DNA from: Flavobacterium sp. Sd200
GTDB taxonomy: Bacteria > Bacteroidota > Bacteroidia > Flavobacteriales > Flavobacteriaceae
NCBI RefSeq assembly: GCF_009826935.1
Contig: NZ_WUMN01000004.1
Location: 310,001-374,000, forward strand
Direction: 5' to 3'
Length of the DNA: 64,000 nucleotides
Shown: one piece after another, positions 52,307 to 60,801 of the stretch
Layout of the letters: every line of letters starts with the position of its first letter
Numbering within the stretch: position 1 is the first letter of the stretch
Translations under genes and position numbers: made by a program
Notes under the pieces: generated by a model
Database searches by the model: none
Seen by the model: the letters and a program-made list of their open reading frames with translations, nothing else
What the model was told of the DNA's origin: nothing

Positions 52307-52327
52307 TAGCCAGTAATTTATTAATCA

Positions 52328-52372
52328 ACACTTCCGTATGTTCTGAGATGAACATACGGAAGTGTTTTTATT
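52328..52372 (+). terminator. strong intrinsic terminator after the lytic transglycosylase
   Basis: ACACTTCCGTATGTTC (52328-52343) pairs with GAACATACGGAAGTGT (52350-52365) in a perfect 16-bp stem, followed by a T-rich tail. It isolates the ilv operon leader from upstream transcription. Confidence 0.9.
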
Positions 52373-52586
52373 TTATATATGCTCAAATAATTATAATATA
52401 AAGATGATTATTTGGGCATGTCTGTATTTTTTAAGTATTCTAATCATTAAGGTTAAAACGGTAATTAAAATTTAAAAAATAGTTGAAGGAAAATACTTCA
52501 TTGAGGATAGTGTAATTTTATTAAGATATTTTTGTAATTATGTTTGTTAATAAAACGTTATTGCTTTAAAAAGTTTAAACTAATTG

Positions 52587-52617
52587 TTGTTTTGTTGAAA
52601 AAATGTTTTTACATTCG
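52587..52617 (+). promoter_or_regulatory. candidate promoter of the ilv operon
   Basis: TTG (52587-52589), a 20-nt spacer and TACATTCG (52610-52617), one mismatch to TAnnTTTG. Transcription would start within about 10 bases before the first leader ATG (52628), giving an almost leaderless mRNA. The 200 bases upstream (52373-52586) are AT-rich with nothing else recognised. Confidence 0.5.
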
Positions 52618-52627
52618 CTACATCAAT

Positions 52628-52693
52628 ATGAAAACAAACAACAACATAGCAGTGGTTCTCATCAGCATTATTGTCATTAGCAATAGAGCCTAA
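52628..52693 (+). CDS. ilv leader peptide 1 (21 aa)
   Basis: A short open frame, ATG AAA ACA AAC to TAA. It begins MKTNNNIAVVL, continues ISIIVIS and ends NRA. Nine of 21 residues are branched-chain: five Ile (including the rare ATA), three Val and one Leu, clustered at positions 7-17. It lies just after the candidate promoter and 30 bases before an intrinsic terminator, so it fits a ribosome-stalling attenuator peptide that senses charged tRNA for Ile, Val and Leu, as known for enterobacterial ilv operons. Too short for standard gene calling. Confidence 0.8.
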   Translation: MKTNNNIAVVLISIIVISNRA

Positions 52694-52723
52694 GGGATGC
52701 TGTTTATTTGTATAAAGATATTT

Positions 52724-52762
52724 TAAGCCGTTCCCACATTAAAGGAGCGGCTTATTTTTTTT
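52724..52762 (+). terminator. attenuator terminator 1
   Basis: TAAGCCGTTCC (52724-52734) pairs with GGAGCGGCTTA (52744-52754), 11 bp with one G-T pair and a 9-nt loop, followed by eight T. It lies between leader peptides 1 and 2. A competing antiterminator is not obvious: only GGGA (52694-52697) with TCCC (52732-52735), and a CAGCAT/ATGCTG hairpin (52663-52668 with 52697-52702) over the leader end. Confidence 0.85.
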
Positions 52763-52769
52763 AAGGTCT

Positions 52770-52817
52770 ATGAAAACAAAAGTTAACATTATCGTCATTC
52801 TCTGCTTGCATACGTGA
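52770..52817 (+). CDS. ilv leader peptide 2 (15 aa)
   Basis: A short open frame from ATG 52770 to TGA 52815: MKTKVNIIVILCLHT. Seven of 15 residues are branched-chain (three Ile, two Val, two Leu). It aligns without gaps to the first 11 residues of leader 1 (7 identical), so the two probably arose by duplication. It begins 7 bases after the T-run of terminator 1. Its stop codon lies inside the left arm of the antiterminator described at 52814-52858. Confidence 0.8.
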   Translation: MKTKVNIIVILCLHT

Positions 52818-52858
52818 GAAGGTACCCTGCACACTAAAATATCTACGGCCCTTCTCAC
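52814..52858 (+). promoter_or_regulatory. attenuator 2 antiterminator hairpin
   Basis: GTGAGAAGG (52814-52822) pairs perfectly with CCTTCTCAC (52850-52858). The left arm contains the leader 2 stop codon TGA. The right arm overlaps the left arm of terminator 2. So a ribosome that stalls earlier at Ile/Val codons leaves this pairing free and prevents termination, while a ribosome that reaches the stop codon blocks it. Confidence 0.8.
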
Positions 52859-52876
52859 TACGAGCAGGGCTTTTTT
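52848..52876 (+). terminator. attenuator terminator 2
   Basis: GCCCTTCTC (52848-52856) pairs with GAGCAGGGC (52862-52870) in eight pairs with one T-C mismatch and a 5-nt loop, followed by six T. It ends 21 bases before the ilvE start codon. It is mutually exclusive with the antiterminator at 52814-52858. Confidence 0.85.
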
Positions 52877-52897
52877 GTATAAAATCATCAATAACTT

Positions 52898-53794
52898 ATG
52901 TACTATAACAGTAATACCATCATCTATTTTAACGGAAGCTTTGTTAAGGCTTCTGAAGCTTCAACAGACCTTTACGGACAATCTCTTCACTATGGTTACG
53001 CCATTTTCGAGGGCATAAAATCATATAAGACCGATGAGGGAACAAAAATATTCAAGGCAAAAGAACATTACGACCGCCTTCGTCGTTCGGCAGAATTAAT
53101 GCATATGCCTTTTAACTACACCTCAGAAGAATTGACGGCGTTGACTTATGAAGTGCTGGAAAAAAATGGCTTTAGGGATGCTTATATCAGGCCATTAGTG
53201 TTTTGTTCCCCTAACATGTCGCTTTCTAAAGGTAAGGAAAGCTATCTTGCCATACAGGCCTGGGAGTGGACAAATGGTTACATGGCCAATAAAATGCGTA
53301 TCATGACATCGTCTTTTGAGCGCCCTAATCCTAAAGCATTTAAAGTTGAGGCAAAAGTTAGTGGTCATTACGTAAATTCAATACTGGCGTGTCAGGAGGC
53401 TAAAGATGCCGGCTATGATGAAGCCCTTGTGTTAGACAGTAATGGTAATGTGGCTGAAAGCAGTGGTGCTAATGTATTCTATGAAAAAGACGGCAAACTG
53501 TACACTCCTGCAAAAGGCAGCATACTGCCGGGCATTACGCGTGCTACCGTATTGGATATATGTGCCCAATTTGAAATTCCGGTAGAGGAAAAATTCTTTA
53601 CTCCTGAGGAAATGCGCGGTGCCGATGCGGCTTTCTTTTGTGGAACAGCAGCAGAAATTTTAGCGTTAGACTCGCTGGACAATGTTCCTTTTACCAAAGA
53701 GTGGGACACAACCCTTAGCGCAACCATACAAAAAGCATATCAGAATTTAGTAGTAGGCAAAACACTGGAAGAGTTCAAGCTGCAACTAGGTTAA
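52898..53794 (+). CDS. ilvE: branched-chain amino acid aminotransferase
   Basis: 298 aa, class IV PLP aminotransferase. It performs the last step of Ile, Val and Leu synthesis with glutamate as amino donor. The PLP-binding Lys is K153 (EAKVSGHYVNSILACQEA), followed by the ExxGxN loop (VAESSGANVF) and PAKGSILPGITRATVLD. It is the first gene behind the double attenuator. ilvD follows after 203 bp that hold two copies of a palindromic repeat. Confidence 0.96.
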   Translation: MYYNSNTIIYFNGSFVKASEASTDLYGQSLHYGYAIFEGIKSYKTDEGTKIFKAKEHYDRLRRSAELMHMPFNYTSEELTALTYEVLEKNGFRDAYIRPLVFCSPNMSLSKGKESYLAIQAWEWTNGYMANKMRIMTSSFERPNPKAFKVEAKVSGHYVNSILACQEAKDAGYDEALVLDSNGNVAESSGANVFYEKDGKLYTPAKGSILPGITRATVLDICAQFEIPVEEKFFTPEEMRGADAAFFCGTAAEILALDSLDNVPFTKEWDTTLSATIQKAYQNLVVGKTLEEFKLQLG

Positions 53795-53796
53795 TG

Positions 53797-53816
53797 GTTG
53801 TTAGTTGTTGGTTGAC
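53797..53816 (+). repeat. GGTTGTTAG-type short direct repeat after ilvE
   Basis: GGTTGTTAGTTGTTGGTTG at about 53798, directly after the ilvE stop; the preceding GGTTAAT, which holds the stop codon, continues the pattern. A low-complexity TTG/GGTT tract. Confidence 0.4.
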
Positions 53817-53872
53817 GGAAATAACAGAACAAAAAAATAATTAAATAGTCTCACCTTATCTGAGTGAAGCTC

Positions 53873-53910
53873 GCTCCCCTCTCCTTTGGAGAGGGGCTGG
53901 GGGTGAGGCC
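53873..53910. repeat. CCCCTCTCCTTTGGAGAGGGG palindromic repeat, copy 1
   Basis: A hairpin CCCCTCTCC-TTT-GGAGAGGGG followed by CTGGGGGTGAGGCC. The bases before it (GAGTGAAGCTC) also match copy 2, so the unit is about 50 bp. Confidence 0.75.
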
Positions 53911-53951
53911 AAACAAACAAATACCCTTTGCTAACTCGCAGGAGTGTAGCT

Positions 53952-53990
53952 GCTCCCCTCTCCTTTGGAGAGGGGTTGGGGGTGAGGCTT
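53952..53990. repeat. CCCCTCTCCTTTGGAGAGGGG palindromic repeat, copy 2
   Basis: Same hairpin and tail as copy 1 (GTTGGGGGTGAGGC). It ends only 7 bases before the ilvD start codon, so it may affect ilvD translation. Confidence 0.75.
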
Positions 53991-53997
53991 AAATATA

Positions 53998-55677
53998 ATG
54001 GAATTAAACAAATATTCAAGGGTTTTTACCCAAGACGAAACACAACCTGCAGCACGGGCAATGCTGTACGGAATAGGATTTGACGACGACGATATGAAAA
54101 AGGCACAGGTGGGCATAGCCAGTATGGGCTATGACGGCAACACCTGCAACATGCACCTTAACGAACTTGCTGCCATAGTTAAAAAAGGCACCTGGGATAC
54201 TGGTCTTGCGGGCCTAATTTTTAATACAATTGGAGTAAGCGATGGTATGAGCAACGGTACCGACGGTATGCGCTACAGCCTTGTAAGTCGCGATGTAATT
54301 GCCGACAGTATTGAAGCCATCTGCGGCGCACAGTATTATGACGGACTTATAACCCTGCCGGGCTGCGACAAGAACATGCCAGGCAGCATTATAGCCATGG
54401 GCAGGCTTAACCGCCCGTCGATAATGGTATATGGCGGCACTATAGCACCCGGATGTTATAAGGGAGAGAATTTAAACATAGTATCGGCATTTGAGGCTTT
54501 AGGGCAAAAGATAGCAGGTACAATGAGCAACGAAGATTTTAATGGCGTTATACGCAATGCCTGCCCGGGTGCGGGTGCCTGTGGCGGCATGTACACGGCT
54601 AACACTATGGCGGCAGCTATAGAGGCACTGGGCATGAGTTTGCCGTACTCATCGAGCAACCCGGCATTGAGCTCTGAAAAAAAACAGGAATGCCTTGATG
54701 CAGGCGAATATATAAAGCTGCTCCTTGAAAAAGATATTAAGCCTACCGACATTATGACCCGTAAGGCGTTTGAAAATGCTTTGCGTATAATCGTGATATT
54801 GGGCGGAAGCACCAATGCCGTACTGCATTTTATAGCCATGGCAAAAAGTGTGGGTGTCGAGGTTACGCAGGACGATTTTCAGCGCATGAGTGATGTAACG
54901 CCTGTATTGGCTGATTTCAAACCAAGCGGTAAATACTTAATGCAGGATTTGCACAACAACGGCGGCATTCCTGCCGTTATGAAATATCTGCTGAAAGAAG
55001 GATTGCTGCATGGCGACTGCCTTACCGTTACCGGAAAAACAGTTGCCGAGAACCTTGAAAATGTGCCCGACCTTGACTTTGAAATCCAAAAAATAATCCA
55101 GCCGCTAAGCAACCCTATAAAAGAAACCGGACACCTGCGTATCATGTATGGCAATCTGGCATCAGGTGGTAGTGTGGCAAAGATTACAGGTAAAGAGGGC
55201 GAACGCTTTAAAGGCCCTGCACGTGTTTTTGATGGCGAGAAACACCTCATAGAGGGAATCTCGACGGGCAGGGTGCAGCACGGCGATGTAATTGTTATCC
55301 GCAACGAAGGCCCTAAGGGCGCACCGGGCATGCCCGAAATGCTTAAGCCTACCAGTGCGCTTATTGGCGCAGGCCTCGGCAAAACGGTTGCCCTTATTAC
55401 CGATGGACGTTTTAGCGGAGGCACCCACGGTTTTGTGGTGGGGCACATTACCCCCGAAGCTTATGAGGGCGGAGTAATAGGCCTTGTAAATGATAATGAT
55501 ATTATTGAAATAGACGCAGTAAACAATACGCTGAATGTATTGCTTAGCGACGACGAACTTGAAAAAAGAAAACAGGCCTGGCAGCAGCCTAAACTAAAGG
55601 TGAGCAGAGGGCTTTTATATAAATATGCCAGAACGGTATCATCGGCGGCAGAAGGTTGTGTTACTGATGAGTTTTAA
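53998..55677 (+). CDS. ilvD: dihydroxy-acid dehydratase
   Basis: 559 aa, the normal length. It dehydrates 2,3-dihydroxy acids to 2-oxo acids in Ile and Val synthesis and uses a Fe-S cluster. Cluster motifs are [10 protein letters not shown] and [17 protein letters not shown]; also [14 protein letters not shown] and [15 protein letters not shown] near the end. ilvB begins 5 bp after its stop. Confidence 0.97.
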
Positions 55678-55682
55678 AAACG

Positions 55683-57449
55683 ATGCGTATGGAAAAGACA
55701 ATTGAAAAAGCAGCCTCGGCTGCACAGCCGGAAATTAAAGAAGAACCCAAAACCCACAGCGGTGGCCAGGTAGTGCTTGAGGCATTGCTTGCCGAGGGTG
55801 TTTCTACCATTTTTGGTTATCCCGGTGGGGCTATAATGCCCATTTATGATTCGCTGTATGATTATAACGATAAGCTAAAACACATATTGGTGCGCCACGA
55901 GCAGGGTGCCATTCACGCGGCACAGGGCTTTGCAAGGGTATCGGGTAAAACAGGCATTGTGTTTGCCACCAGTGGCCCCGGTGCTACAAACCTTGTTACC
56001 GGACTTGCCGATGCCATGATAGACAGTACACCGCTGGTATGCATAACCGGACAGGTATTTGCGCACCTGTTGGGTACGGATGCCTTTCAGGAAACCGATG
56101 TGGTAAACATTACCATGCCGGTTACCAAATGGAATTACCAGGTTACCGATGCCGAAGAGATTCCTGCAATATTGGCTAAGGCATTTTATATAGCTTCATC
56201 AGGTAGGCCGGGGCCGGTACTTATTGATATTACCAAAAATGCCCAGCTACAGAAAATAGCTTTTAAGGGCTATGAAAAATGCGATTTTATTCGCAGTTAC
56301 AGGCCGAAGCCTGTAGTGCGCAACGAATATATAGAACAGGCTGCAAAGCTTATCAACGCTGCCGAACGTCCGTTTGTGGTGTTTGGGCAGGGCGTCCTTT
56401 TAGGTAATGCCGAGCAGGAGTTTAAAGAGTTTATCGAAAAGGCAGGCATTCCAAGCGCGTGGACTATATTGGGCATGAGCGCCATCCCTACAGACCACCC
56501 GCTGGGTGTGGGCATGGTGGGCATGCACGGCAACTATGGTCCTAATAAACTTACTAACGAGTGCGATGTGCTTATTGCTATAGGTATGCGCTTTGATGAC
56601 CGCGTTACAGGCAGGCTCGACAAATATGCCACTCAGGCAAAAATCATTCACCTTGATATAGACCCTGCCGAGGTAGACAAAAACGTAAAAGCCGATGTGC
56701 CGGTGTGGGGCGACTGTAAAGAAACCCTGCCTTTGCTTACTGCCCTTGTAGAAAAGAAAACGCATGGCGCATGGCACCGAAAGTTTACCGATTGTGCCAA
56801 ACGCGAGCAGGAGAAAGTTATTCAGGATGAGGTTTACCCAACCGATGCAGTGCTTACCATGGGAGAGGTTATCCGTAACCTGAACGAACTTACCAATGGC
56901 AATGCCATTATTGTGACTGATGTGGGGCAGCACCAAATGGTGGCCTGCCGTTATGCGCAATATGTACATTCGCGCAGCAACGTTACCAGTGGCGGGCTTG
57001 GCACTATGGGGTTTGCACTTCCGGCTGCTATAGGCTCTGCCTATGGCGACCCGAGTCGTACTACCGTTGCCATTATAGGCGATGGTGGTGTACAGATGAC
57101 CATACAGGAACTGGGTACTATTATGCAGTTTAAGCCAAACGTAAAAATACTGATACTAAACAACAGCTTTTTAGGAATGGTGCGCCAGTGGCAGCAGCTT
57201 TTCCATGAAAAACGCTACTCGTTTGTAGATATACAAAGCCCTGATTTTGTTCAGGTAGCCAAAGGATACGGCATACCGGGCAACAGCGTTTCAGAAAGGG
57301 AAAATCTTCGCGACGCTCTTAAAACCATGTTAGACCATGACGGCAGCTACCTGCTGGAAGTTATGGTAGGAAAAGAAAATAATGTATTCCCAATGGTTCC
57401 GCAGGGCAAAAGCGTAAGCGAGATTGTGCTGGGAAGAGATGAAATGTAA
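55683..57449 (+). CDS. ilvB: acetolactate synthase large subunit
   Basis: 588 aa. It condenses pyruvate with pyruvate or 2-oxobutyrate. ThDP-enzyme features are the catalytic Glu in LVRHEQGAIHAAQGFAR, a central FAD-linked domain (about 215-355) and the ThDP/Mg motif GDGGVQMTIQELG to ILNNSFLGMVRQWQ. The alternative start is the ATG two codons later. Followed by the regulatory subunit gene after an 84-bp gap filled by a long palindrome. Confidence 0.97.
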   Translation: MRMEKTIEKAASAAQPEIKEEPKTHSGGQVVLEALLAEGVSTIFGYPGGAIMPIYDSLYDYNDKLKHILVRHEQGAIHAAQGFARVSGKTGIVFATSGPGATNLVTGLADAMIDSTPLVCITGQVFAHLLGTDAFQETDVVNITMPVTKWNYQVTDAEEIPAILAKAFYIASSGRPGPVLIDITKNAQLQKIAFKGYEKCDFIRSYRPKPVVRNEYIEQAAKLINAAERPFVVFGQGVLLGNAEQEFKEFIEKAGIPSAWTILGMSAIPTDHPLGVGMVGMHGNYGPNKLTNECDVLIAIGMRFDDRVTGRLDKYATQAKIIHLDIDPAEVDKNVKADVPVWGDCKETLPLLTALVEKKTHGAWHRKFTDCAKREQEKVIQDEVYPTDAVLTMGEVIRNLNELTNGNAIIVTDVGQHQMVACRYAQYVHSRSNVTSGGLGTMGFALPAAIGSAYGDPSRTTVAIIGDGGVQMTIQELGTIMQFKPNVKILILNNSFLGMVRQWQQLFHEKRYSFVDIQSPDFVQVAKGYGIPGNSVSERENLRDALKTMLDHDGSYLLEVMVGKENNVFPMVPQGKSVSEIVLGRDEM

Positions 57450-57533: not shown

Positions 57534-58121
57534 ATGAAAAAGGAATTTACCATAACCGTATATACAGAAAACCATGTGGGGTTGTTAACCCGCATTGCGA
57601 TTATATTTTCGAGGCGAAAAATAAACCTTGAAAGCGTTAACGTCGGACCAAGTGAGGTAGAAGGCATAAGCCGTTTTACGCTTGTAATTACCGAAGCCGA
57701 AGAAGTGGTGCAAAAAGTTGTGCGCCAGATAGAAAAGCAGGTTGAGGTGCTCAAAGTATTTTTTAATACCGACGATGAAATTGTATGGCAGGAAATGGCC
57801 ATGTATAAAGTGCCTACCAAGGTTATAGCCGAACAGGTAAAGGTAGAGCGATTGTTGCGCCAGTATGGGGCAAACACAGTTGTAATCCGTAATGATTATA
57901 CGGTTTTTGAAACCACCGGGCACAAAGAAGAAATTGATGCTTTGGCAGAAGCCTTACAGCCCTGGGGGCTTATAGAGTTTGTACGCAGTGCACGTATTGC
58001 CATTATTAAGGCAAGCGAAGGCACACACAAAGCAGTGTTGGAATTTGAAGCGGCGATGCCAAGCGAACCTGCTGCCGAAAATGAATTCCTTGATAAAAGG
58101 GATGGGGTTTTTACTATGTAG
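57534..58121 (+). CDS. ilvN: acetolactate synthase small (regulatory) subunit
   Basis: 195 aa. An N-terminal ACT domain (about 3-75; TITVYTENHVGLLTRIAIIFSRRKINLESVNVG, in parts) binds valine for feedback inhibition, and the C-terminal domain (about 85-170) belongs to the ALS_ss_C type. It partners with IlvB and is called ilvN here because only one small subunit gene is seen. A degraded repeat follows. Confidence 0.94.
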   Translation: MKKEFTITVYTENHVGLLTRIAIIFSRRKINLESVNVGPSEVEGISRFTLVITEAEEVVQKVVRQIEKQVEVLKVFFNTDDEIVWQEMAMYKVPTKVIAEQVKVERLLRQYGANTVVIRNDYTVFETTGHKEEIDALAEALQPWGLIEFVRSARIAIIKASEGTHKAVLEFEAAMPSEPAAENEFLDKRDGVFTM

Positions 58122-58350: not shown

Positions 58351-59397
58351 ATGGCAAAATTAAATTTTGGCGGGGTAGAAGAAAACGTAGTAACCCGCGA
58401 TGAATTCCCGTTACAAAAAGCACAGGAAACATTACAAAACGAAGTTGTTGCGGTAATTGGCTATGGCGTTCAGGGGCCGGGCCAGGCGCTAAACCTTAAA
58501 GATAACGGCATTAGCGTTATTGTAGGTCAGCGTAAAAATTCTAAATCGTGGGATAAAGCTGTTGCCGATGGCTTTGTACCGGGCGAAACCCTTTTTGAAA
58601 TTGAAGAAGCCCTGCAAAAAGGCTCTATTATATGTTACCTGCTTAGCGATGCCGCACAGATTGAATACTGGCCATTGGTTAAAGAAAACCTTACAGCCGG
58701 CAAAGCACTTTATTTCTCTCACGGGTTTGGTGTAACGTTCAACAGCCAGACAGGCATTGTTCCGCCGGAAAATGTAGACGTGTTTTTAGTTGCGCCTAAA
58801 GGTTCGGGTACTTCATTGCGCCGCATGTTCCTTCAAAACCGCGGGCTTAACAGCAGCTTTGCCATTTTCCAGGATGCTACGGGCAAGGCCTGGGATAGGG
58901 TAGTATCGTTAGGCATTGCCATAGGCAGTGGTTATTTATTTGAAACGGATTTCCAGAAAGAAGTGTACAGCGACCTTACTGGAGAGCGCGGAACGCTTAT
59001 GGGGGCCATACAGGGTATTTTTGCAGCACAGTATGATGTGCTTCGTAGAAAAGGCCACAGCCCGAGCGAGGCGTTTAACGAAACAGTGGAAGAACTTACA
59101 CAGTCGCTTATGCCACTGGTTGCAGAAAACGGTATGGACTGGATGTATGCCAACTGCAGTACTACCGCACAACGTGGCGCACTTGACTGGTGGAAGCGTT
59201 TCCGCGATGCTACGGCTCCAATTTTTGAAGAGCTTTATGACAGTGTTGCCACAGGTAAAGAGGCCGGATATTCTATAGAGAGTAACAGTAAAGAAGATTA
59301 TCGCGTTGGTCTTGATGCCGAACTTGCCGAACTTCGCGACAGCGAAATGTGGCAGGCCGGTAAAACCGTGCGCAGCCTGAGGCCGGAGAATAACTAG
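58351..59397 (+). CDS. ilvC: ketol-acid reductoisomerase
   Basis: 348 aa. It isomerises and reduces 2-acetolactate and 2-aceto-2-hydroxybutyrate with NADPH and Mg. The Rossmann motif is VIGYGVQGPGQALNLKDNG, followed by GQRKNSKSW. The C-terminal knotted domain contains SDLTGERGTLMGAIQG and the metal Glu in NETVEELTQ. It resembles the fungal Ilv5-like form found in Bacteroidota rather than the long enterobacterial form. ilvA follows after two palindromic repeats. Confidence 0.96.
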   Translation: MAKLNFGGVEENVVTRDEFPLQKAQETLQNEVVAVIGYGVQGPGQALNLKDNGISVIVGQRKNSKSWDKAVADGFVPGETLFEIEEALQKGSIICYLLSDAAQIEYWPLVKENLTAGKALYFSHGFGVTFNSQTGIVPPENVDVFLVAPKGSGTSLRRMFLQNRGLNSSFAIFQDATGKAWDRVVSLGIAIGSGYLFETDFQKEVYSDLTGERGTLMGAIQGIFAAQYDVLRRKGHSPSEAFNETVEELTQSLMPLVAENGMDWMYANCSTTAQRGALDWWKRFRDATAPIFEELYDSVATGKEAGYSIESNSKEDYRVGLDAELAELRDSEMWQAGKTVRSLRPENN

Positions 59398-59535: not shown

Positions 59536-60801
59536 ATGAATATTCAACCCACAACATATTTTCCTTCTTTAGATGATGTAAAGCATGCAGCCGAGCGATT
59601 AAAACACATTGTTTATAAAACCCCGCTTGCTGTAAACCGCACAACATCTGAACTGTATGAAGCCAATATTTTTTTTAAGAGGGAAGACCTGCAACAGGTA
59701 CGCTCTTATAAAATTCGTGGAGCTTACAATAAAATGGCGACACTCAACCAAGCCGAAAGGGCACAGGGTGTAGTTTGTGCCAGTGCAGGAAACCATGCAC
59801 AGGGTGTAGCACTTGCCTGCAATAAAATGGAGGTTAAGAGCACTATATTTATGCCCACGCCTACGCCGGGGCAAAAGCTGGATCAGGTAAAAATGTTTGG
59901 CGGAGAGTTTGTTGAGGTAGTTTTAGCAGGCGATACCTTTGATGAAGCTAAAGAAGCGGCCTTAAAATATTGCAATGAACAGGGGGCGGTTTTTATACAC
60001 CCGTTTGACGACCCTAAAATTATTGAAGGCCAAGCAACTATAGCCCTCGAAATTTTAGAACAGGCACAGCAACCCATAGACTATATTTTTGTGCCCATAG
60101 GCGGTGGCGGTCTTGCTGCCGGGCTTAGCAGTGTTTTTAAACAACTATCGCCCAATACAAAGATAATTGGGGTAGAGCCCACAGGCGCGCCCAGCATGAA
60201 AAAAGCACTTGAAGCAGGGCAGGCAACCCATTTAGAGCGTATTAATAAGTTTGTAGACGGTGCTGCCGTGCAAAAAGTGGGCGACTACACTTTTGATATC
60301 TGCCGCAACACGCTGCACGATATGCTTTTGGTAGACGAAGGGCTTATCTGTCAGGTAATACTGTCGCTTTATAATAAAGATGCCATTGTGGTAGAACCCG
60401 CCGGAGCATTATCAATAGGGGCTTTGGCACAATATGCAGAAAAGATAAAAGGTAAAAATGTGGTTTGCATTATATCGGGTAGTAATAACGATATTACCCG
60501 TATGGAGGAAATTAAGGAGGGCGCGCTGCTGTATGCCGGGCTTAAGCATTACTTCCTTGTAAAATTTCCGCAAAGGCCGGGTGCATTGCGCGAGTTTGTA
60601 ATGAATGTTTTAGGCCCTACCGACGATATTGCCCATTTTGAATATACCAAAAAGAACAGTAAAGAAAAAGGTACGGCTGTAGTAGGTATTGAACTTAAAA
60701 CGGCATCTGATTATGATGCGCTGTTAAGTAATATGAAAAACTTAGGCTTTTATGTAGATTATCTTAACGACAAACCACATTTGTTGAATTTATTGGTGTG
60801 A
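59536..60801 (+). CDS. ilvA: threonine ammonia-lyase (threonine dehydratase)
   Basis: 421 aa. It deaminates threonine to 2-oxobutyrate, the entry step for isoleucine. The PLP Lys is K59 in RSYKIRGAYNKM, and the Gly-rich loop is PIGGGGLAAGLSS. A C-terminal ACT-like regulatory domain (about 335-420, YFLVKFPQRPGALREFVMN) supports the biosynthetic form controlled by isoleucine. It is the last gene of the operon. The 34 bases to the convergent gene show no clear terminator. Confidence 0.95.
   Translation: MNIQPTTYFPSLDDVKHAAERLKHIVYKTPLAVNRTTSELYEANIFFKREDLQQVRSYKIRGAYNKMATLNQAERAQGVVCASAGNHAQGVALACNKMEVKSTIFMPTPTPGQKLDQVKMFGGEFVEVVLAGDTFDEAKEAALKYCNEQGAVFIHPFDDPKIIEGQATIALEILEQAQQPIDYIFVPIGGGGLAAGLSSVFKQLSPNTKIIGVEPTGAPSMKKALEAGQATHLERINKFVDGAAVQKVGDYTFDICRNTLHDMLLVDEGLICQVILSLYNKDAIVVEPAGALSIGALAQYAEKIKGKNVVCIISGSNNDITRMEEIKEGALLYAGLKHYFLVKFPQRPGALREFVMNVLGPTDDIAHFEYTKKNSKEKGTAVVGIELKTASDYDALLSNMKNLGFYVDYLNDKPHLLNLLV

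Follow-up and report, generated by a model that had tools for sequence, protein, structure and literature searches.

The enterobacterial ilvGMEDA and ilvBN operons, like the trp operon, are each preceded by a single leader-peptide attenuator. The leader of the ilvEDBNCA operon of Flavobacterium sp. Sd200 resembles these systems, as a short open reading frame (ORF) rich in the regulated amino acids is combined with mutually exclusive antiterminator and terminator structures, and the position of the ribosome would decide between them. It differs from the enterobacterial ilv and trp leaders, which have one unit per operon, in that two complete units, and in some relatives three, stand in series. 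A further difference is suggested by folding, which predicts for some of our loci no hairpin hiding segment 2 when the ribosome is absent. Leaders with two regulatory units have been described in other contexts. According to the sections of the source considered here, the Salmonella mgtCBR leader has two short ORFs which each act on transcription; these units respond to different signals, ATP and proline, and act additively, and the stem–loops do not resemble intrinsic terminators (PMC3641672). As far as these sections go, the mgtCBR leader shares with our locus the two short ORFs in one leader, whereas here both are Ile/Val leaders and two intrinsic terminators are present. The same sections describe tandem riboswitches upstream of Bacillus clausii metE, with two sensing units and two intrinsic terminators in one leader (PMC3641672). 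The metE units are presented there as ligand-binding RNAs for two different signals, while the leaders reported here are of the translated type. The transcriptome of Flavobacterium psychrophilum gives strong indications that operons for amino-acid biosynthesis are preceded by leader-peptide attenuators, and a tandem arrangement of these leaders is not mentioned in the part of that study considered here (PMC9723704). Single leader attenuators of the same unit design are found in Bacteroidota upstream of ilv, ilvA, ilvD and hisG (genes named by eye), one per operon. The openly accessible papers searched yielded no description of tandem ilv attenuators; an earlier description elsewhere is possible. 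Each unit is of an ordinary, known kind; what appears to be new is the conserved stacking.

In our view it is very probable that the 5′ region of ilvEDBNCA consists of two complete ribosome-mediated transcription attenuators of the trp/ilv type, arranged in series behind one promoter. The basis of this reading is the sequence with its conservation, the terminator helices and the single promoter box, together with mutually exclusive structures predicted by folding; from these we infer translation of the ORFs, stalling and a multiplicative read-through. In the window, that is, the whole 64 kb stretch of DNA that was analysed, the order from 5′ to 3′ is promoter box, ORF1, terminator 1, ORF2, terminator 2 and ilvEDBNCA, all on the forward strand. 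Further upstream, a 17-pair terminator-like hairpin (52327-52366) lies directly 3′ of a 295-aa frame and sets the ilv promoter region apart from this frame.

Leader ORF1 (52628-52693) has 21 codons and a stop codon and would be translated as MKTNNNIAVVLISIIVISNRA, with Ile, Leu or Val at nine of the 21 residues. Its control codons are ATC AGC ATT ATT GTC ATT; the stretch ATTATTGTCATT is invariant in an alignment of eight sequences (A3), and a hairpin within the ORF (52668-52686, TTATTG / CAATAG) covers the control codons. Directly 3′ of the stop codon lies segment 2 of attenuator 1 (A1), GGGATGCT at 52694-52701, as delineated by folds with ribosome positions; its antiterminator partner is predicted by folding at 52726-52735. 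Terminator 1 (52724-52762) is made up of a stem (52725-52734 / 52744-52753) and a T-run at 52755-52762. Leader ORF2 (52770-52817) has 15 codons and a stop codon, the translation MKTKVNIIVILCLHT with seven of 15 residues being Ile, Leu or Val, and the control codons ATT ATC GTC ATT (CTC). In attenuator 2 (A2), segment 2, GTGAGAAGG at 52814-52822, overlaps the ORF2 stop codon and could form nine perfect pairs in the window with its predicted partner CCTTCTCAC at 52850-52858. Terminator 2, GGCCCTTCTCACTACGAGCAGGGCT followed by a T-run, extends from about 52847 to 52876, with the stem 52848-52852 / 52866-52870 plus an inner part and the T-run at 52871-52876. The first gene of the operon, ilvE, encodes a branched-chain aminotransferase (52898-53794; our search query) and is followed by open frames for ilvD (53998-55677), ilvB (55683-57449), ilvN (57534-58121), ilvC (58351-59397) and ilvA (59536-60801). 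These gene names come from recognisable sequence and not from a family search; the searches used IlvE and IlvD only.

The earlier note had described two leader ORFs rich in Ile, Val and Leu. Both ORFs and their Ile and Val codons stand, yet Leu is minor (1/21 and 2/15 residues), and we regard both leaders, from their sequence, as mainly Ile/Val leaders. The note had also placed an intrinsic terminator with a T-run after each ORF. A simple terminator scan which considers only loops of 3-8 reports neither of them, but a separate hairpin search finds both, with −16.3 kcal/mol for terminator 1 and −12.8 kcal/mol for terminator 2, and the helices are conserved (see below).

We suggest that the leader operates in the following way. 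A ribosome which finishes the leader ORF would cover segment 2, so that segment 3, the 5′ arm of the terminator, pairs with segment 4 and transcription terminates. A ribosome stalled at the Ile/Val codons would leave segment 2 free to capture segment 3 as antiterminator, and the polymerase would pass. Beyond A1 the polymerase would meet an equal test at leader 2, which is loaded with a fresh ribosome, and the operon would only be transcribed after two successive ribosome stalls. Both units would read Ile and Val, with the rare codon GTC within the decisive stretch. An AND logic would follow from this arrangement. As the decisive stretch of either leader contains codons for Ile as well as Val, the leader seems to check one signal twice and not to combine different ones.

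The clustered regulated codons and the intrinsic terminator by which leader-peptide attenuators are recognised are present in both units. For both units, folding predicts in 36 of 36 tandem loci an antiterminator that makes use of the 5′ arm of the terminator and that a ribosome located at the stop codon would block. In the window, with the RNA masked to 12 nt beyond the start of the A-site codon, the upstream pairing of A1 segment 3 is 0.8 throughout the Ile/Val codons and falls to 0.4 at AGA, 0.3 at GCC and 0.1 at the stop codon; for A2 it is 0.9 throughout the Ile/Val codons, 0.7 at TTG, 0.2 at CAT and 0.0 at the stop codon. Averaged over the 36 loci, and with the stalled value taken as the highest among the final six Ile/Val codons, the pairing is 0.82 stalled against 0.04 at the stop codon for A1 and 0.70 against 0.07 for A2. 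The stalled value exceeds the stop-codon value in every locus and for both attenuators, and with the ribosome at the stop codon the terminator is predicted to form in all 36. When the full RNA is folded, the antiterminator loses to the terminator in nearly all stalled states; the switch must therefore be kinetic. Compared with dinucleotide shuffles, the antiterminator pairing lies above the shuffle mean in 31/32 A1 and 36/36 A2 sequences. At least four of 60 shuffles reach the observed pairing in 5/32 A1 and 18/36 A2 sequences (five of 60 for A1 of the window, 37 for A1 of L001), and many antiterminators taken singly are unexceptional.

The Val codons of the leaders are unusual. In the seven divergent tandem loci listed below, GTC makes up 22 of the 29 leader Val codons (12/15 and 10/14), compared with 28 of 1206 (2.3%) in 37 ORFs of the window, a baseline taken from the Sd200 genome only. 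The assembly has two tRNA-Val genes, both with the anticodon TAC. A tRNA-Val with GAC was not found in the assembly; tRNA-Ile(GAT) is likewise unseen, which means that the assembly lacks one tRNA region or more, and the absence of the GAC tRNA is uncertain. The rare GTC is apparently decoded by tRNA-Val(UAC) only.

The Leu codons raise the question of a second input. It is conceivable, though unlikely, that the leader is a two-input gate in which A1 senses Ile and Val and A2 senses Leu as well, via a conserved Leu codon near the stop codon of leader 2. This leader ends in P-L-R-L/W or similar in most loci, the conserved codon falls in the transition zone of the folding profile, and in the seven divergent loci a ribosome at this position still leaves segment 3 with an upstream pairing of 0.4-0.8; in the window, moreover, a Leu codon CTC is located in the open stretch of both leaders. 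In Chryseobacterium, however, the pairing at this codon is only 0.2-0.4 and drops to near zero within 1-3 codons. The codon is also part of a helix arm paired in 98.8% of the alignment cells, a possible cause of its conservation, and among the open frames of the window the ilvEDBNCA operon includes no leu genes. A Leu input to A2 is possible in the folding model but unneeded to explain the conservation of the Leu codon.

The helices were examined in alignments of 36 tandem loci (A5/A6), from which L131, having the same leader as L006, and the single-attenuator locus L004 were left out. The hairpin over the ORF1 control codons is paired in all 216 of 216 cells (100%) with two pairs changed on both sides; the terminator 1 helix is paired in 99.7% of the cells, again with two such pairs, and the terminator 2 helix in 95.3% with three. 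For these three helices none of 500 shuffles reaches the observed covariation score or the observed count of cells with changes on both sides, while the number of pairs changed on both sides does not exceed all 500; as the loci are closely related, the shuffle controls overstate the significance. The A1 antiterminator is paired in 91.3% of the cells with one pair changed on both sides, counted in the register of the Chryseobacterium sequences, to which the Flavobacterium sequences conform less closely. Eight of the nine pairs of the A2 antiterminator were counted; in 32 distinct sequences they are paired in 89.5% without compensatory changes. The helix counts support both terminators, and the antiterminators are predicted from folding. 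In other groups antiterminators of different sequence can be read by eye, for example GGAGG/CCTCC in single attenuators of Chitinophagaceae. RNAalifold proposed another helix of 5 bp in A2, which is conserved (98.8% of cells paired) but nearly invariant; when the window is folded the antiterminator prevails over it, and it was set aside.

Could such a pair arise by chance? The hairpin search gives 58 terminators on both strands of the window, and upstream of 15 of them an ATG ORF of 12-45 codons ends at a distance of 5-60 nt. The ORF is rich in Ile, Leu and Val in three of these 15 cases, two of which are the ORF1/ORF2 pair, 123 nt apart. Covariance models of Rfam return three tRNAs in the window and no match at gathering score to a T-box or another leader RNA. 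Conservation is decisive: both leader ORFs, with translation predicted, are present in 90 of 90 tandem loci checked, and each leader has at least six Ile, Leu or Val codons in all 83 loci where ORFs were searched for. The two-unit arrangement is confirmed as real and not due to chance.

A search for relatives of IlvE in genome contigs yielded 22 loci (L001-L022). Two units precede ilvE in seven divergent loci, namely the window, F. subsaxonicum (L001), F. zepuense (L002), F. rivuli (L003), a Flavobacterium MAG (L005), Chryseobacterium potabilaquae (L006) and L027; besides the window, five of these are Flavobacterium loci (L001, L002, L003, L005, L027). One unit is present in F. akiainvivens (L004), in Chryseobacterium sp. 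SN22 (L009; L267 of genome G632 encodes the same leader) and in 14 loci mostly from Chitinophagaceae or unclassified Bacteroidota (L007, L008, L010-L020, L022); L021 comes without upstream DNA. A single unit also precedes an ilvE-like gene in three more own-genus loci (L102, L110, L235). IlvE of the window type (E ≤ 1e-120) is encoded in three of 398 genomes of the genus, Sd200 included. The window and L027 are tandem, and the third, L028, has no detectable attenuator unit. From 61 genomes drawn within the genus, 29 ilvD loci were fetched (L030-L058, window excluded); a single attenuator lies immediately upstream of ilvD in 18 of them, and a pair in none. The pair is therefore unusual in Flavobacterium and goes with the ilvE-first operon. 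Other leaders of the genus were met on the way: 23 of 29 own-genus loci fetched from other genomes with the A1 model carry a single Ile-rich leader attenuator before an ilvA-like gene, judged by eye (among them L103-L105, L107, L109 and L112-L114), and in three own-genus genomes (L106, L111, L125, at about 1470-1735) tandem Ile-rich attenuators precede a stand-alone gene with an IlvN-like product of ACT type, again named by eye.

In Chryseobacterium, the covariance model of A1 (R1) matches in 160 of 173 genomes at E ≤ 0.01, and 84 genomes form a separate strong group at E ≤ 9.5e-7. Two units stand before ilvE in all 84 of these, the 30 best (L131-L160, 30/30) as well as the other 54 (L161-L214, 54/54), and both ORFs were found in every locus from L132 to L214. 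These loci were picked by their A1 match; the independent fact is that A2 follows in all 84. L131 (genome G595) encodes the same leaders as C. potabilaquae L006, and in L193, which was read by eye, the A1 terminator is degenerate. IlvE at E ≤ 1e-120 is found in 118 Chryseobacterium genomes, 82 of which belong to the 84 strong tandem ones; one more (G651) has a weaker R1 match and a readable A2. A single attenuator is present in 25 of the 118 (23 in one survey, plus L215 and L091), and in seven no attenuator was detected within 450 nt; two loci are cut by a contig end and one (G642) was not fetched. With 25 single leaders and seven without a detected unit among 118, the single state is common and two attenuators are therefore not essential. 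Of 20 Chryseobacterium loci read among the weaker R1 matches, 16 are leaders with a terminator upstream of a hisG-like gene, as judged by eye (L216, L217, L219-L229, L231, L232, L234).

Beyond these two genera, the A2 model (R2) matches in 18 of 148 genomes of family f5, which we take to be Weeksellaceae. Seven f5 loci outside Chryseobacterium (L250-L253 and L255-L257, from genera g92, g102, g103 and g118) have two units of different sequence before ilvE-ilvD, one unit being read by eye in five of them; L254 is not readable as an attenuator. In the own family, Flavobacteriaceae, R2 matches in five of 299 genomes, that is, the window, L337 and L338, which are tandem before ilv genes, and L339 and L340. 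The latter two, from two genera of the family, have three Ile-rich leader attenuators in series before ilvE (L339, 1344-1759 in reverse-complement count; L340, 1333-1762), and in L340 the second and third units are near-duplicates. Among 29 ilvD loci from 60 genomes drawn within the family, four have two units (L070, L076, L079 and L083 among L059-L087, window excluded). Taken together, an arrangement of two or more units occurs in 14 genera including Flavobacterium and Chryseobacterium; the 12 further genera have pairs of other sequence, two of them triples. Both models were built from the type of the window, so that other attenuator types are undercounted.

In genome G697 two attenuator groups lie about 1.8 kb apart on contig 21 (L258 and L259). 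One is a tandem pair upstream of an unrelated 483-aa frame, the other a single unit upstream of ilvE, which looks like the result of a gene insertion between the two groups. The IlvD of the window (ilvE-ilvD, 52898-55677) is 84% identical to that of Chryseobacterium L088 and L089 and 72% to L091, and 69-72% identical to the own-genus copies listed. As it is nearer to L088 and L089 than to its own genus, the ilvE-first operon together with its leaders may have moved between lineages.

The number of attenuators varies from zero to three among relatives, which could mean that only one unit is a working attenuator, while the leader of the other is vestigial and its terminator is decaying or constitutive. 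The degenerate A1 terminator of L193 and the many antiterminators that do not stand out singly from shuffles would fit such decay. Nevertheless we consider it very unlikely, as both leaders keep the ORF, the Ile/Val codons, the terminator and the ribosome-dependent fold in 36 of 36 loci, and the A1 hairpin and terminator keep their both-side changes.

The Bacteroidetes promoter has the −7 consensus TAnnTTTG plus a −33 element. A putative promoter of this kind is located at 52585-52617 of the window, where the −7 box TACATTCG (52610-52617) follows a −33 region of the TTTTGTTG type. All 36 aligned loci and 50 of 54 further tandem loci (86/90) have a TAnnTT(T/C)G box at most 45 nt before ORF1. 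In most of the Chryseobacterium loci checked for spacing, this box ends 4 nt before the ATG of ORF1, and leader 1 may therefore be almost leaderless there. It is extremely unlikely that the upstream unit belongs to the end of a gene of its own, for a short RNA or peptide, and that a second promoter between terminator 1 and ORF2 drives the operon: only 7 nt separate the first T-run from ORF2, where a promoter overlapping terminator 1 is conceivable, and one box pattern was searched, but this pattern occurs within 60 nt before ORF2 in 0/36 and 0/54 loci (0/90). Two attenuators in series before ilvE, as proposed in the earlier note, are found in conserved order with one promoter box upstream of both; and conservation in relatives, set beforehand as a test, was borne out in five Flavobacterium loci and 84 of 84 Chryseobacterium loci.

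A last point is the behaviour of the two units in the absence of a ribosome. At the stage preceding synthesis of segment 4, the antiterminator pairing reaches at least 0.5 in 30/36 A1 and 14/36 A2 sequences and stays below 0.5 in 6/36 and 22/36, which bears on a 1:2 protector hairpin. All six loci with A1 below 0.5 have A2 above 0.5. In the folds one unit is off and one on in 28 of the 36 loci, both are on in eight and both off in none; of the 28, six (the window, L001, L002, L003, L005 and L150) have A2 on with A1 off, and the reverse holds in 22. The A1 sequence of the window, folded by itself, forms a large hairpin which hides segment 2, and A2 folds as antiterminator. The motif CTCTGC in ORF2 (52800-52805) could base-pair with 52864-52869 in the 3′ arm of terminator 2, and in the fold this favours read-through of an untranslated leader. 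The pattern of one unit off and one on may be due to shared ancestry. Tentatively, and with some doubt, we put forward from these folds that the pair could be a proofreading device whose units have complementary failure modes and are gained or lost as modules, zero to three per operon. If so, it would pass only leaders on which a ribosome has stalled at Ile/Val codons twice and would reject well-fed translation as well as the absence of ribosomes, and the response would be steeper and less leaky.

Attenuation is usually viewed as one decision per transcript. Here an equal decision would be taken two or three times; the stacking is kept across two families and the copy number varies between close relatives. 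Leaders with zero, one, two and three units form a natural genotype series in which one may ask whether stacking brings sensitivity, reduces the leak or filters noise. Reliance on the rare codon GTC would further make ideas on the codon sensitivity of attenuation testable outside the Proteobacteria.
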